Assembly (NCBI GenBank): GCA_003151335.1
Contig: PLXE01000022.1
Location: 1-64,000 of the forward strand
DNA length: 64,000 nt
Origin: Acidobacteriaceae bacterium
GTDB taxonomy: Bacteria; Acidobacteriota; Terriglobia; Terriglobales; Acidobacteriaceae
Direction of reading: 5' to 3'
Part shown: one piece after another, positions 4,181 through 25,717 of the stretch
Layout: every line of letters starts with the position of its first letter
Numbering within the stretch: position 1 is the first letter of the stretch
Notes under the pieces: generated by a model
Told to the model about the DNA's origin: nothing
The model's database searches: none
Seen by the model: only the letters and a program-made list of their open reading frames with translations
Program-made: the position numbers and the translations under genes

Positions 4181-4377
4181 ACCGGTGAAACATCGGACTG
4201 TGAGCCTGCTTTCCGGGATGACTCTGTTTTCATCCCGTTCCATTCCCGCTTGAAATAATCCCCGTCGCCTCCCGGAGTCTAACCAACCCCTGGGAAGTTC
4301 GTTTGAGAAGACGCCTCTGATCCGCAGGCTCCTATATACTGAATCATTACCGTCGATCGGCTGCGCCCCGATCCATT

Positions 4378-5384: not shown

Positions 5385-5563
5385 CGGCCTTTAGAGACTG
5401 TGTCGCAACCCATATTGGTTTGCGGGAGTGGAAGGAATCACACAAAATTCAGCCCCGAATGGGGCGAAAGAGCTTAGCCCAGCGCTTTAGCGCTGGGTCA
5501 AGTGGAAAATAAGACAGAGTCCCGTAGGGACGGCAGAGGTTGCGACACAGTCTCTTTAGGCCG
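5385..5563. repeat. Dispersed hairpin repeat, family A, copy 1
   Basis: Fills the 321-base gap between the lipoprotein and LysR genes. An 18-bp perfect inverted repeat (AGAGACTGTGTCGCAACC at 5393-5410 and its complement at 5538-5555), extendable to about 26 bp with two mismatches, encloses a core of smaller hairpins: GCCCCGAATGGGGC, CCCAGCGCTTTAGCGCTGGG and GTCCCGTAGGGAC. Related copies lie at 20352-20548 and 21871-22065. The size and terminal repeats look MITE-like, but no target duplication was identified. Confidence 0.75.
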
Positions 5564-22430: not shown

Positions 22431-22565
22431 GAAAGCTCTACAGAACCGCCTCCCAATCTTTAACTCTAGTTTTAATATAGCACATTTCAGGGGTAAATGG
22501 ACACCATTTTCGTGGTTTATTTCGCGGTTGTTTTCAATGGTTTGGATGCGATTGTTGTATTTTGC

Positions 22566-22588
22566 CAGGAATATTCACTTGACACAAA
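22566..22588 (+). repeat. Left terminal inverted repeat of the IS1595-type element
   Basis: 23 bp identical, in inverted orientation, to 25568-25590. It begins CAGGAATATTCACTTGACAC. TTGACA inside it could serve as a -35 box for the transposase, whose ATG is 26 bases downstream of the repeat. Confidence 0.9.
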
Positions 22589-22613
22589 CCAATCATTTGT
22601 GTAATATGAATAC

Positions 22614-23594
22614 ATGAACAAGCGAATCCATCCTAAGCCCATGAATATCAGGGACATTGCGATAAAGTTCTCTACCGAAGAGCAGTGTCTTGAGTACGTC
22701 GAGCAAATGCGCTGGCCGGACGGCGTTGTGCGCTGCCCGATCTGCGGCGGCGATCAGGTCAAGAAGGTGCGCCGGGATGCTGAGTCCAAGAACAAGCGGC
22801 CCTGGTTCTACCTGTGCCTTGAGAAAACCTGCCATCAGCAATTCTCGCCCACGGCGGGGACGCTGTTCGCTGACTCGCATCTCCCGCTCATAGTCTGGTT
22901 CCATGCCATCGGCCTGATCTTGAACGCGAAGAAGGGCATCAGCGCAAAGCAGCTACAGCGCGATCTCGGCATCGGCGGATACAAAACCGCCTGGTATCTG
23001 AATCACCGCATCAGGGAAGCGATGCGCGAGAACGATGGCAATCTGCTCGGCGGGACCGTCGAAATTGATGAGACGTATGTAGGCGGTCGCGTGAAGGGCA
23101 AGGGCATCAGTTACGCCATGAGCAAGAAACAAGTTGTGATGGGTGCTGTAGAGCGCGGCGGCGAGCTTCGCTTGCGTCACGTCGAAAATGCCGAAGCCCA
23201 CACCTTGCGCGGGTTCATCGCAGCGCACATCAGCCCTGATACTGAGCGCATCATGACCGATCAGCACAAGAGTTATCCTCCGGCCCTGAAATCGCTAACC
23301 AAAATGAATCCCGATTTTTCGCCACGGCATGAAACCGTGAATCACATAATCGGGGAGTACGTGCGCGGCGACGTTACGACTAACGGTATCGAATCCGCGT
23401 TCTCACTGCTCAAGCGCGGAGTGATAGGCCAGTTCCACAAGCTGTCCGGCAAGCACTTGCACCGCTATTTGAGTGAGTTTGAGTACAGGTTCAACCGGCG
23501 TAACGATGCGGACGTGTTCATAGACACGGTGCGCCGTTTGTGCGGAGTTGCACCGCTGCGATTCGAGGAGCTTACTTCTGGCGAGAAGGCTTAG
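22614..23594 (+). CDS. IS1595-family transposase
   Basis: A 326-aa transposase. The N-terminal zinc ribbon (CPICGG and CLEKTC) is followed by an HTH-like segment (KGISAKQLQRDLGIGGYKTA). The DDE catalytic domain has TVEIDETYVGG, IMTDQHKSY, VNHIIGEYVRG and the TTNGIESAFSLLKRG block with the terminal Glu, and ends HLHRYLSEFEYRFNRR. The ORF is intact. Five ATA codons are present (for example codon 17), which matters given the UAU-anticodon tRNA next door. It reads toward the minus-strand passenger operon and overlaps the 43-aa ORF at its 3' end. Confidence 0.95.
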   Translation: MNKRIHPKPMNIRDIAIKFSTEEQCLEYVEQMRWPDGVVRCPICGGDQVKKVRRDAESKNKRPWFYLCLEKTCHQQFSPTAGTLFADSHLPLIVWFHAIGLILNAKKGISAKQLQRDLGIGGYKTAWYLNHRIREAMRENDGNLLGGTVEIDETYVGGRVKGKGISYAMSKKQVVMGAVERGGELRLRHVENAEAHTLRGFIAAHISPDTERIMTDQHKSYPPALKSLTKMNPDFSPRHETVNHIIGEYVRGDVTTNGIESAFSLLKRGVIGQFHKLSGKHLHRYLSEFEYRFNRRNDADVFIDTVRRLCGVAPLRFEELTSGEKA

Positions 23595-23703
23595 ACCGTT
23601 TGGCCTGGGCCTTCTTCCCCGCCTTTATCTCTGATTCCTTCTTCGGCGGGGACTTCAGCATCCGCGAGAGAAGCGCGTCGAATTGTGCCTTATCGGTTTT
23701 CAT
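23572..23703 (-). CDS. 43-aa basic ORF at the end of the passenger operon
   Basis: Translated from the minus strand, the 43-aa product starts MKTDKAQFDALLSRMLKSPP and continues Lys-rich to RSKPSRQK. It starts four bases after the 3' end of the tRNA-like gene, and its last 23 bases overlap the end of the transposase gene on the other strand. Helical D-x-x-L-x-R-M text followed by a basic tail suggests a small partner-binding or nucleic-acid-binding protein, but no family is assigned. No Shine-Dalgarno is evident, so translation could depend on coupling or on processing of the tRNA. It could be spurious. Confidence 0.5.
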   Translation of the reverse strand: MKTDKAQFDALLSRMLKSPPKKESEIKAGKKAQAKRSKPSRQK

Positions 23704-23707
23704 TCGG

Positions 23708-23796
23708 CGGGACCGATCCGATTCGAACGGACGGAACGTGAATGCACGTTCACCCGATTATAAGTCGGGAGCACTAAGCCACTATGCGACGGTCCC
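23708..23796 (-). tRNA. Class-II tRNA-Ser-like gene with UAU anticodon
   Basis: Cloverleaf read by eye on the minus strand. The 7-bp acceptor pairs GGGACCG with CGGTCCC. Then come U8, a 17-nt D arm (GCATAGTGGCTTAGTGC, 3-bp stem, A14, G15 and the GG pair), and a 5-bp anticodon stem CCCGA/TCGGG with loop CTTATAA (anticodon TAT). A long variable arm follows (GAACGTG, loop CATT, CACGTTC), then a T arm GTCCG-TTCGAAT-CGGAT. The discriminator is G, followed by CCG rather than CCA. Long variable arm, 3-bp D stem and G73 are serine-tRNA traits, yet the anticodon would read the isoleucine codon AUA. It lies inside the mobile element, between two ORFs. Confidence 0.8.
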
Positions 23797-23798
23797 AC

Positions 23799-24083
23799 CT
23801 AATTCGGGGCCTTCGTTGCTGGCTTCGCATCATCTGCTGGCTTTGGGTTTACTTTTGCGGCGTCCACAGTGACGCTGTTCTCCTTCTCGCCCTTCATCAG
23901 CCCAATCTCAAGAATTGCGATCACTGCTGCTGGACGTAGGCTGTCGTCGTTCTCCCCAATATTTGCAGCGTTAAGTCCAAATTTGACGAACAACGACCAG
24001 AGCCCCTCGTGAATACCTTGGGACTTGATAAGGGATGTGGCTACTTCCTTGTACGAAAAAACAATGTTGCCGACCTCAGGCAC
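23799..24083 (-). CDS. 94-aa hypothetical protein, third gene of passenger operon
   Basis: Not recognised. The first ~60 residues look folded (EVGNIVFSYKEVATSLIKSQ, then a GLWSLFVKFGLNAANIGEND segment and PAAVIAILEIGLMKGEKEN). The last 25 are Lys/Ala/Pro-rich and probably disordered. A GTG start overlaps the end of the repressor gene by eight bases, so the two are likely translationally coupled. Its TAG stop is two bases before the tRNA-like gene. A third component next to a toxin-antitoxin-like pair could be a chaperone or effector, but nothing in the sequence proves it. Confidence 0.6.
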   Translation of the reverse strand: MPEVGNIVFSYKEVATSLIKSQGIHEGLWSLFVKFGLNAANIGENDDSLRPAAVIAILEIGLMKGEKENSVTVDAAKVNPKPADDAKPATKAPN

Positions 24084-24573
24084 GGTACACCACGCTTTTC
24101 TTGTCGTTAGAGCTTGTCAGCTCAAGTTGTGCGTCTATGTGCAATGGCGTATAGGGTTCATTGGTAGTTACAGCAGTGTCGTACCATAGTGACATGCGGC
24201 AAGTTGGAAGAAGTGCACTTCCAAGCTCAAAGTAGTCAACCGGCGCACCCTGTAATTTCCAGCATTGCTCAAAGATTTCCGAGCTAATGGGTCCACGCAA
24301 GTTACGCGGGTCTCCATCGTCATAAGCGACGAGAGCAACCTTCAAACCGAGTCCCTTGGCGTATTCGACCGCATTAACCAGTTGCAGATTGCCGGGCTTG
24401 TTCAGGAACTGCGATACGGCAGAACGTGTCACATGAAGCCGTTTGGCCAGTTCTGTTTGGTTAATCGGAACCTGGTCCATCCGCTTCATCAACTGAGTAA
24501 CAAAATCAAACGAAATCCGATGGATGAATGCTGCTGTACTTCTCTCGGTCCAATGGCGCTTTAGTTTTTCCAC
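24076..24573 (-). CDS. XRE-type helix-turn-helix protein (antitoxin/repressor-like)
   Basis: A 165-aa protein. An N-terminal helix (residues 1-35) precedes an HTH: INQTELAKRLHVTRSAVSQF then LNKPGNLQLVNAVEYAKGLG, the Cro/CI-type fold. Residues ~95-165 form an extra domain with beta-strand character (APVDYFELGSALLPTCRMSL and following). A GTG start has GGGGAGGA six bases upstream, the strongest ribosome site in the operon. It overlaps the RelE/HigB-like gene by 13 bases. Binding to the twin palindromes upstream of the operon is inferred from usual autoregulation of such pairs. Confidence 0.82.
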   Translation of the reverse strand: MEKLKRHWTERSTAAFIHRISFDFVTQLMKRMDQVPINQTELAKRLHVTRSAVSQFLNKPGNLQLVNAVEYAKGLGLKVALVAYDDGDPRNLRGPISSEIFEQCWKLQGAPVDYFELGSALLPTCRMSLWYDTAVTTNEPYTPLHIDAQLELTSSNDKKSVVYRA

Positions 24574-25019
24574 GACTTCCTCCCCTTACCGTACTCCGGG
24601 TACTCCTTTGCTATAGCTTCTATCGCCCTTAGATCGGCAAGCATTTGCATTGCATGATCTAGAATTGTCGGCTCTGTATTCCACTGGTATTTTGTTGCAG
24701 ATTCAGTCAGAACACACAGCCGAAAGCCACCGTCGGTTTCCGGCCTCGGATTACACAGGAAGCCGTATAACCGCAACGACTGATGTTTAAACGCGTAGCA
24801 CTCGTGGTGCTTAGGGTCATTCGGGAATCCGTGGTGATATTTGTCGTGCACTCCCCCGCTCAACCAATGGTCGATCCTGTCCCTGATTTCTTGCTCTTCC
24901 TTGCTTCCAAGGGCATCAAATGTTCGACCAGCATCTAACCAACCCTCACCCTCCAGAAAGCCAATACCGCGTCGTCTGAAGTAGAAACCACTTGGCGTTC
25001 TGAAAGTGAGTATCGGCAT
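24561..25019 (-). CDS. RelE/HigB-like protein (putative toxin)
   Basis: A 152-aa protein, first gene of the passenger operon. Central residues (HHECYAFKHQSLRLYGFLCN, then GGFRLCVLTESATKYQW) followed by a long helix (ILDHAMQMLADLRAIEAIAKEYPEYGK) follow the strand-turn-strand, positive-patch, C-terminal-helix order of HigB/RelE-type mRNA interferases. The match is by pattern only, the protein is longer than typical toxins, and the N-terminal ~60 residues are extra. The frame opens at 25079, but that stretch covers an operator palindrome, so ATG 25019 is preferred. Position ahead of an XRE gene is the HigBA order. Confidence 0.55.
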   Translation of the reverse strand: MPILTFRTPSGFYFRRRGIGFLEGEGWLDAGRTFDALGSKEEQEIRDRIDHWLSGGVHDKYHHGFPNDPKHHECYAFKHQSLRLYGFLCNPRPETDGGFRLCVLTESATKYQWNTEPTILDHAMQMLADLRAIEAIAKEYPEYGKGRKSWKN

Positions 25020-25045
25020 CGGACTTGGCGGCCCATTTGTCCACA

Positions 25046-25101
25046 GTTTAGCTGGGGCTAAACAATGTGTCAATGGCACTTATGTTTAGCTGGGACTAAA
25101 C
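25046..25101. promoter_or_regulatory. Twin palindromic operators of the passenger operon
   Basis: GTTTAGCTGGGGCTAAAC (25046-25063) and GTTTAGCTGGGACTAAAC (25084-25101) are 18-bp inverted repeats with 6-bp half-sites, 38 bp apart centre to centre. They lie 27-82 bases upstream of the RelE/HigB-like start. The pair also faces the plus-strand region leading to the 46-aa peptide. They are likely sites for the XRE protein. Confidence 0.75.
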
Positions 25102-25330
25102 TTTGGTAACGCCATTCTATGCCAATGGATACAGCCCTGTCACGGCATTTTCATTCTCTCAGCGGTGGCGGCTATTGCCGCGTTATTGGCCGGACCTCCG
25201 TACCGTGACCGCCGTCACAGACAGCGATCAAGTGGGCAATATTGCTCAGACAGCGATCTGTCGCCTGCGTAATACTGACTCGATTCGGAACCCATCGGTT
25301 TCTGTTTTCGACACCATAATTGGAGGCGTC

Positions 25331-25471
25331 ATGACTTCGTCCATTTTAGTGCTTGGTGCTAGTCTGGTAGTGATCGCGCTGCTGGCGATCTATGTCCCTA
25401 CGATTTATATCCGCAAGACGAACAAAATGATCCACCTCTTGGAGCAAATCGCGGCCAACACACGCAAATGA
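25331..25471 (+). CDS. 46-aa single-pass membrane peptide
   Basis: The peptide MTSSILVLGASLVVIALLAI followed by YVPTIYIRKTN and a short amphipathic tail has one transmembrane helix (residues 4-24) and a basic C-terminal side. GGAGG lies five bases before the ATG, good support for translation. The upstream part of the open frame (25103-25330) is not coding-like. It is the last gene inside the IS1595-type element and is divergent from the toxin-like operon. It is similar in size to type-I toxins and small holin-like peptides, but the function is unknown. Confidence 0.6.
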   Translation: MTSSILVLGASLVVIALLAIYVPTIYIRKTNKMIHLLEQIAANTRK

Positions 25472-25567
25472 GGGTTTAGCCCGGCCACCGTTGGGACGAC
25501 CTGAACAACCCCCTGCCGGGGGCTGTACTTTTTACCCACTGCCCTGTCTATCCGATTCTAGCAGGTA

Positions 25568-25590
25568 TTTGTGTCAAGTGAATATTCCTG
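25568..25590 (-). repeat. Right terminal inverted repeat of the IS1595-type element
   Basis: Perfect 23-bp complement of 22566-22588, followed directly by CATTTTGC, the right copy of the 8-bp target duplication. Confidence 0.9.
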
Positions 25591-25717
25591 CATTTTGCAA
25601 TATTGACATGTAAAAAGTAGGCGGTAAAAAGTGCTAGTGGTAGCACGACGACTATAAAATGGACCGTTTCGGGAAAGAGCCCACCCTCGCCCTTTACTGT
25701 AGCCATGACTACTCGCT

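Follow-up and report, generated by a model that had tools for sequence, protein, structure and literature searches.

A transposon-borne class-II tRNA with anticodon UAU that may re-read AUA codons in its own transposase gene

A tRNA gene that combines the body of a serine tRNA with the anticodon UAU, which matches the isoleucine codon AUA, raises the question of which messages it serves and with which amino acid. The gene was found in the window, i.e., the whole stretch of 64,000 nucleotides analyzed here from an Acidobacteriaceae bacterium, as follows:

23708-23796, minus strand: class-II tRNA with 7/5 arms, anticodon UAU (23762-23760) and G73 at 23708, then CCG (sequence, ARAGORN, Rfam)

As read from the sequence, the acceptor stem GGGACCG/CGGUCCC has 7/7 Watson-Crick pairs, the D stem GCA/UGC has 3 bp, the anticodon stem CCCGA/UCGGG closes the loop CUUAUAA, the variable arm GAACGUG-CAUU-CACGUUC has 7 bp, and the T stem of 5 bp, including one G-U pair, carries the T loop UUCGAAU. 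The original prediction, which had described a 7-bp acceptor, a 3-bp D stem, a 7-bp variable arm, G73 and UAU, agrees with the sequence, ARAGORN and Rfam. Covariance scoring, which it had named as a check, accepts the fold, since the Rfam model RF00005 matches 23708-23796 on the minus strand with 50.5 bits (E 7.2e-8; gathering threshold 29) and an entire cloverleaf, which places the gene in the tRNA family. As predicted too, CCA is not encoded and G73 is followed by CCG (23707-23705). The genome contains one match to this tRNA. An identical 12-mer, TCGGCGGGACCG, is present in the transposase gene (23047-23058) and at the tRNA 3' end (23704-23715), probably by chance.

The automatic label of ARAGORN for 23706-23796 (minus strand), tRNA-Ile(tat), does not hold as an identity, because a class-I body with A73 is expected of tRNA-Ile, whereas a class-II body with G73 is seen; the host CAU tRNA that resembles tRNA-Ile2 is of the expected kind, class I with A73. 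The long variable arm and G73 are both traits of tRNA-Ser, the substrate of SerRS. The proposed likeness to allo-tRNAs was sustained in the class-II variable arm, G73 and the non-Ser anticodon, but not in the arms, which are 7/5 instead of the 8/4 or 9/3 of the 12-bp acceptor/T domain, and the window tRNA is therefore outside the published 12-bp definition. Allo-tRNAs were reportedly the subject of a study by Mukai et al. in 2017, as related in a review (PMC7609411).

The tRNA is carried by an IS1595-family transposon at 22566-25590, which consists of the following features and is flanked by the two target-site duplications:

22558-22565, no strand: left target-site duplication TATTTTGC, 8-bp flank, 7/8 against CATTTTGC; empty site in genome G383
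22566-22588, plus strand: left terminal inverted repeat CAGGAATATTCACTTGACACAAA, 23 nt, 100% complementary
22614-23594, plus strand: IS1595-family transposase, 326 aa (PF12762, 111.5 bits; PF12760, 39.1 bits)
23799-24083, minus strand: 94-aa ORF ending just ahead of the tRNA, without Pfam match
24076-24573, minus strand: 165-aa HTH_3 protein, cargo (PF01381, 26.8 bits)
24561-25079, minus strand: 172-aa cargo ORF, without Pfam match
25568-25590, minus strand: right terminal inverted repeat, 23 nt, 100% complementary
25591-25598, no strand: right target-site duplication CATTTTGC, 7/8 against TATTTTGC; empty site in genome G383

Assignment to the IS1595 family follows from the DDE domain, the zinc ribbon and the 23-bp terminal inverted repeats (100% complementary), along with the 8-bp target duplication (7/8). 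Judged by eye from relatives, the transposase might start at the ATG at 22641 instead of 22614. The insertion is absent from the same-genus genome G383, which holds the empty site, and removal of the element together with one 8-bp copy (TATTTTGC/CATTTTGC) yields the G383 sequence with two substitutions by eye. The inverted repeats, the transposase (PF12762) and this empty site bear out the prediction that the tRNA sits in a transposon. Elsewhere in the window, an Acido-Lenti-1 RNA, indicative of Acidobacteriota, was noticed at 5451-5497 (minus strand, 46.1 bits).

The neighboring transposase had been predicted to contain five AUA codons, and five were counted and placed in the transposase alignment:

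22662-22664, plus strand: AUA codon 17, column 114
22890-22892, plus strand: AUA codon 93, column 224
23346-23348, plus strand: AUA codon 245, column 436; tRNA-less relatives have Ser in 13 and Lys in 12 of 35
23424-23426, plus strand: AUA codon 271, column 469; tRNA-less relatives have Ile in 12, Val in 10 and Met in 9 of 35
23520-23522, plus strand: AUA codon 303, column 506

All of them (5/5) fall within nine columns in which the family carries AUA. At the two columns that covary with the anticodon (110 and 477), the window transposase has AGG and GGC and no AUA, so the case for coupling in the window rests on the family.

Relatives were collected by searching for the transposase in genomes of the same class and the same family and by scanning the neighborhoods of the matches. 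All 53 matches of one relative search were taken, two longer lists contributed part of the matches listed, and, as the genome searches overlap, their number (1996) refers to searches and not to distinct genomes; the judged IS1595 elements all belong to a single bacterial family. When 95 transposase loci were scanned strictly and without regard to the anticodon, 24 class-II tRNAs were recovered (19 UAU, four UAA and one GUC with A73), and a relaxed scan restricted to UAU gave 28 tRNA(UAU), the window's included. The best arm fit of these 28 is 8/4 in 16, 7/5 in nine and 9/3 in three, and allo-tRNA arms (8/4 or 9/3) are thus present in 19/28; G73 is found in 27/28. Relative to the transposase, 23 of the tRNAs lie on the same strand and five, including the window's, on the opposite one. 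The anticodon loop is nearly invariant in their alignment while most other positions are variable, the invariance of the anticodon being a consequence of selecting the set for UAU.

A covariance model was built on the 28 UAU tRNAs. The AUA-rich loci L299, L300, L295, L225, L292 and L284 had been wrongly regarded as tRNA-less, as the model or the relaxed search finds a tRNA in them, and the covariance-model tRNAs of these loci are all UAU by eye. In the UAU tRNAs of L299, L300, L295, L292 and L225, anticodon stems of 4 bp with an A-C mismatch at the loop end were noticed by eye; the 4-bp-stem tRNAs of PMC13092985 offer a comparison. No tRNA was detected by the model in 11 low-AUA loci (L305, L310, L312, L246, L249, L229, L251, L313, L357, L361 and L234), and the sole match in 24 outgroup loci is a gene that ARAGORN calls tRNA-Val, in L231. 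The broken or contig-end-shortened loci L220, L286, L226, L227, L306, L311, L298 and L291 gave no match. L287 gave a weak one only (22 bits). The remaining exception is L224, which has AUA codons and the right end and in which the model finds no tRNA. A close relative, L219, has a second tRNA-like gene (Ala, TGC; 4211-4285) beside its UAU tRNA.

A search for flanking repeats around 39 tRNA-bearing elements returned 21 with a pair scoring at least 14, one of which is spurious (L355). The tRNA lies inside the inverted repeats in 20/20 genuine pairs (17 computed; L284, L295 and L299 from positions), and exact 8-bp target duplications were found in 7/20 elements with genuine repeats, the window having 7/8. 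No cargo protein is shared throughout the 21 elements, the largest cluster spanning 4/21, and among the cargo seen only the tRNA is common.

Further class-II tRNAs were noticed during the searches. An anticodon-blind pattern for one acceptor type, applied to 383 family genomes, found 17 tRNAs outside a second, clearly distinct allo-tRNA type by eye, and all of them (17/17) are UAU; for five of the 17 (L400-L404), no IS1595 transposase was present within the 4.6-8 kb examined. The second type (GGAGGGTGTTNCCAGTGGGTACTGGAC..., L405-L419) has the anticodons GCG, GUC, UUC, GCC and GUA by eye and seemingly chromosomal neighborhoods in L407, L410 and L413, and it was rejected as IS1595-linked since no IS1595 transposase is nearby. 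Two other candidates for the same system were dismissed as well, namely, from the class-II UAU tRNAs that occur scattered in other phyla, the one of Candidatus Acidiferrum, with an IS1595 transposase about 3 kb off (32% identity, one AUA), and L262 (class II, GUC, A73), with five AUA codons, four of them in hydrophobic columns. Class-II tRNA(UAU) with G73 also occur in CRISPR-cas neighborhoods of three MAGs, i.e., between cas3 and a csx17-like gene (L062:2729-2816), beside a csx17-like gene (L063:7081-7172) and upstream of cas3 (L064:7804-7892); the csx17-like genes of L062 and L063 are without Pfam match, and by eye one L062 AUA is aligned with an Ile codon other than AUA in L063. In viral contigs (L066-L185), ARAGORN calls a tRNA(UAU) no shorter than 84 nt in 82 among the 120 IMG/VR matches listed for CTTATAAN{20,46}GTTCGAATC; many of those listed have an A73 end and AGATT in the variable arm, a separate phage class-II UAU kind. 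An IS1-like transposon (L402:3476-7833) with inverted ends of 24 nt carries an 8/4 tRNA(UAU), and its transposase has seven AUA codons, some at Ile-like and some at variable places; the element possibly represents a second family with the same habit. Finally, the IS1-like element of L435 carries a class-II tRNA with anticodon UUA, which would read the stop codon UAA, about 185 bp ahead of the transposase and between a repeat-like left end and that gene.

Returning to the IS1595 family, the transposases were compared as follows. From the starting loci, L216 (ORF broken at 181 codons; tRNA(UAU), two AUA), L291 (269 codons, six AUA) and L252 (the same as L232) were removed to give 72, while L217 (a duplicate of L216) and L218 (242 codons) were never in the transposase set; 20 added transposases brought the alignment to 92. 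Judgment was confined to 77, after exclusion of the pseudogene L220 and of 14 with less than 3 kb downstream and no known tRNA. The nine columns contain at least two AUA codons in 33/33 transposases with tRNA(UAU), at two to six each, versus 1/44 without it (Fisher 5e-21); they are the columns with at least three AUA in the UAU set, hand-set without column 146 (seven AUAs), and were chosen from the very data that are tested. The same contrast appears in counts that involve no choice of columns: three or more AUA codons occur in 31/33 versus 3/44 (Mann-Whitney 4e-12). Among the 44, six carry a UAA tRNA, and 43 have zero or one AUA in the nine columns, while L224 has three. The mean number of AUA codons per transposase is 3.94 with tRNA(UAU) (n=33), 1.12 in a sister clade with UAA (n=8) and 0.54 in the tRNA-less set (n=35; L220, L224, L262 and L238 left out).

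The sister clade is where codon and anticodon change together. In L236, the class-II G73 tRNA bears the anticodon UAA, and the only two UUA codons of the L236 transposase stand at the two columns where AUA is commonest (110 and 477). Seven relatives, 67-97% identical to L236, also have UUA at both columns, so that in this clade of eight UUA makes up 15/15 readable codons at columns 110/477 versus 3/213 Leu codons elsewhere; in the other judged transposases, UUA is found in the nine columns in 0/71. The class-II G73 UAA tRNA was found in 7/8 members, and the contig of the eighth, L351, stops 56 bp past the transposase gene. AUA and UUA differ at codon position 1, UAU and UAA at anticodon position 36, and the bases at these two positions are complementary. 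On the tree, the switch to UAA is one event, later kept in divergent copies.

Shared descent has to be weighed against these figures. A tree computed with the codons in question masked offers six independent contrasts in the tRNA; five pairs agree, none disagrees and one is a tie (p 0.06), so that this control is suggestive, not conclusive. It is conceivable, although very improbable, that the tRNA has a non-translational or toxin-antitoxin role and that the codon pattern is mere inertia of descent. An association of allo-tRNA(UAU) with transposons or toxin-antitoxin systems is a published hypothesis, given in a section of a review (PMC7609411), the window tRNA has an HTH gene close by, and the independent contrasts are few; however, cargo proteins are shared by at most 4/21 elements, and the codons follow the anticodon.

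AUA in these genes does not behave as a synonym of AUC and AUU. In the tRNA(UAU) set of 33 transposases, AUA occurs 111 times across the nine columns and AUC/AUU once, while in seven columns with Ile in at least 60% of tRNA-less relatives the same transposases have 95 AUC, 17 AUU and 0/112 AUA. The synonymous share of differing codons, calculated from 26 transposases, is 0.013 for AUA and 0 for Met and Trp, while every other codon that has synonyms lies at 0.146-0.825. In the tRNA(UAU) set, hydrophobic columns (at least 80% IVLMF) hold 26/128 AUA versus 381/503 AUC/AUU (p 8e-31); part of this contrast is not tRNA-specific, because the tRNA-less set shifts in the same direction, though more mildly (7/17 versus 383/509; p 0.003).

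Co-occurrence, the loss of synonymy and the UUA/UAA sister clade together make a coupling of the tRNA to the codons of its own transposase well supported. The central guess of the original prediction, that the tRNA acts on its own transposase via AUA, is accordingly strongly supported by the family.

A coupling of this kind might reflect no more than rare-codon supply, in which charging would follow the anticodon (Ile for UAU, Leu for UAA) and the tRNA would merely aid translation of rare codons. We consider this unlikely. AUA is indeed rare in the neighboring glnA (0/21 Ile codons), and Ile stands at columns 469 and 110 in many tRNA-less relatives and outscores Ser per occurrence; yet AUC or AUU would be equally serviceable and are outnumbered 111 to 1, some AUA codons occupy columns of Ser/Lys, of Glu or of Gly/Pro, the tRNA resembles host tRNA-Ser in its long arm and G73, and the host has TilS.

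The columns themselves do not name the inserted residue. With each AUA column counted once, the residue scores are -0.48 for Ala, -0.50 for Thr, -0.66 for Arg, -0.89 for Ser and -1.60 for Ile, while per occurrence Ile is above Ser in both weightings (-0.64 versus -1.72; -0.95 versus -1.64) and Val or Thr is top; deriving the amino acid from the alignment was abandoned, as the weighting decides between Ser and Ile, and Ala, Thr, Val or Arg is higher. Among the 92 transposases, Ser is found in 0/92 at columns 110, 469 and 477, and Ile from non-AUA codons occurs 7 times at column 110 and 13 times at 469, while columns 384 and 436 have Ser 33 and 35 times and non-AUA Ile once each. Columns 384 and 436 are thus Ser-like, 110 and 469 Ile-like and 477 Ala-like; column 469 is Thr or Asn in the UAA clade. 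Such a mixed pattern would suit a doubly read codon about as well as a clean reassignment.

Double reading leads to another explanation, a codon-level throttle, in which AUA and UUA would be selected as slow or ambiguous codons, the tRNA would set the outcome, the residue would matter less, and mixed Ile/Ser (or Leu/Ser) products would keep activity low. This is a possible account that we hold tentatively. It would explain why the codon is conserved while no residue stands out, and why the same codon stands in Ser-like (384, 436) and Ile/Val-like (469, 110) columns; in its favor, too, the fourth codon of the MNL-X-D start that is common in the family lies at column 110. But the columns are not random, with three (384, 436 and 477) rich in Ser or Ala, and two to six sites per gene are few for a throttle.

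As for decoding in the host, its genome contains TilS and three CAU tRNAs, one of which we take to resemble tRNA-Ile2, and judging from these genes the host is able to read AUA normally. All host tRNA-Ser found (4/4) have the long arm and G73, while all host tRNA-Leu (5/5) have A73. The window tRNA is thus probably charged with Ser by host SerRS, as its long arm and G73 suggest. According to a section of the review PMC7609411, Ser was inserted in Escherichia coli at CUC and UUA, both Leu codons, by Silvibacterium allo-tRNAs, while allo-tRNA(UAU) was unusable for translation in E. coli; UAU is listed there among the predominant anticodons of 8/4 allo-tRNAs, and Edaphobacter C40 is described with an allo-tRNA(UAU) pseudogene overlapping a transposon-related ORF.

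The explanation we prefer, at about even chances, is that the IS1595-family transposon brings along a dedicated decoder, a tRNA probably carrying Ser, which gives AUA (or UUA) another reading in the transposase gene of the element. In this view, a rare sense codon (AUA, or in the sister clade UUA) stands at a few favored sites of the transposase message and is matched by the anticodon of the transposon's class-II G73 tRNA, which host SerRS would charge through its long arm and G73. Ser might then enter at these codons at least in part, alone or mixed with Ile, with the element's tRNA competing against that of the host. If Ser is read at these codons, a working transposase would depend on the element's own tRNA, and enzyme output would be tied to the dose of that tRNA, which would limit jumping, with control as its likely use. 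That the codons track the anticodon suggests that, in these soil-type bacteria, the genetic code is privately amended for a single gene. It is an evenly balanced prospect that the self-encoded tRNA reassigns AUA (UUA after the anticodon switch) inside its own transposase, that code and reader co-evolve, and that other allo-tRNAs, with other anticodons, may serve other mobile elements in this way.

If this is true, sense-codon re-reading would be restricted to a single mobile-element gene whose reader is self-supplied in a host still equipped for normal AUA, and database translations of such transposases would be wrong at AUA/UUA positions. For allo-tRNA(UAU), whose role a section of the review (PMC7609411) leaves open, a target gene and target codons can now be named and are directly testable.

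Compared with known allo-tRNAs, the window tRNA shares the class-II body, the Ser-type identity elements and a non-Ser anticodon, but its arms are 7/5, and the section of the review (PMC7609411) is silent on transposase codons. Codon coupling of a tRNA and a transposase was not found in the literature searched, which was mostly without subscription papers. Like other IS1595-family transposons, the element has zinc-ribbon and DDE_Tnp_IS1595 domains, inverted repeats, 8-bp target duplications and cargo; unlike them, its constant cargo is a tRNA and its transposase holds the matching codons. The normal bacterial reader of AUA is tRNA-Ile2(CAU) with lysidine, made with TilS, which the host likewise possesses, but that tRNA has a class-I body and A73 and serves the whole genome, whereas the window tRNA is class II with G73. 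With phage suppressor tRNAs and stop-codon recoding, too, a mobile element supplies the tRNA by which a codon of the element's own genes is read anew. Here, in contrast, a sense codon is concerned, at a handful of sites in a single gene of a small transposon, and anticodon and codon covary.
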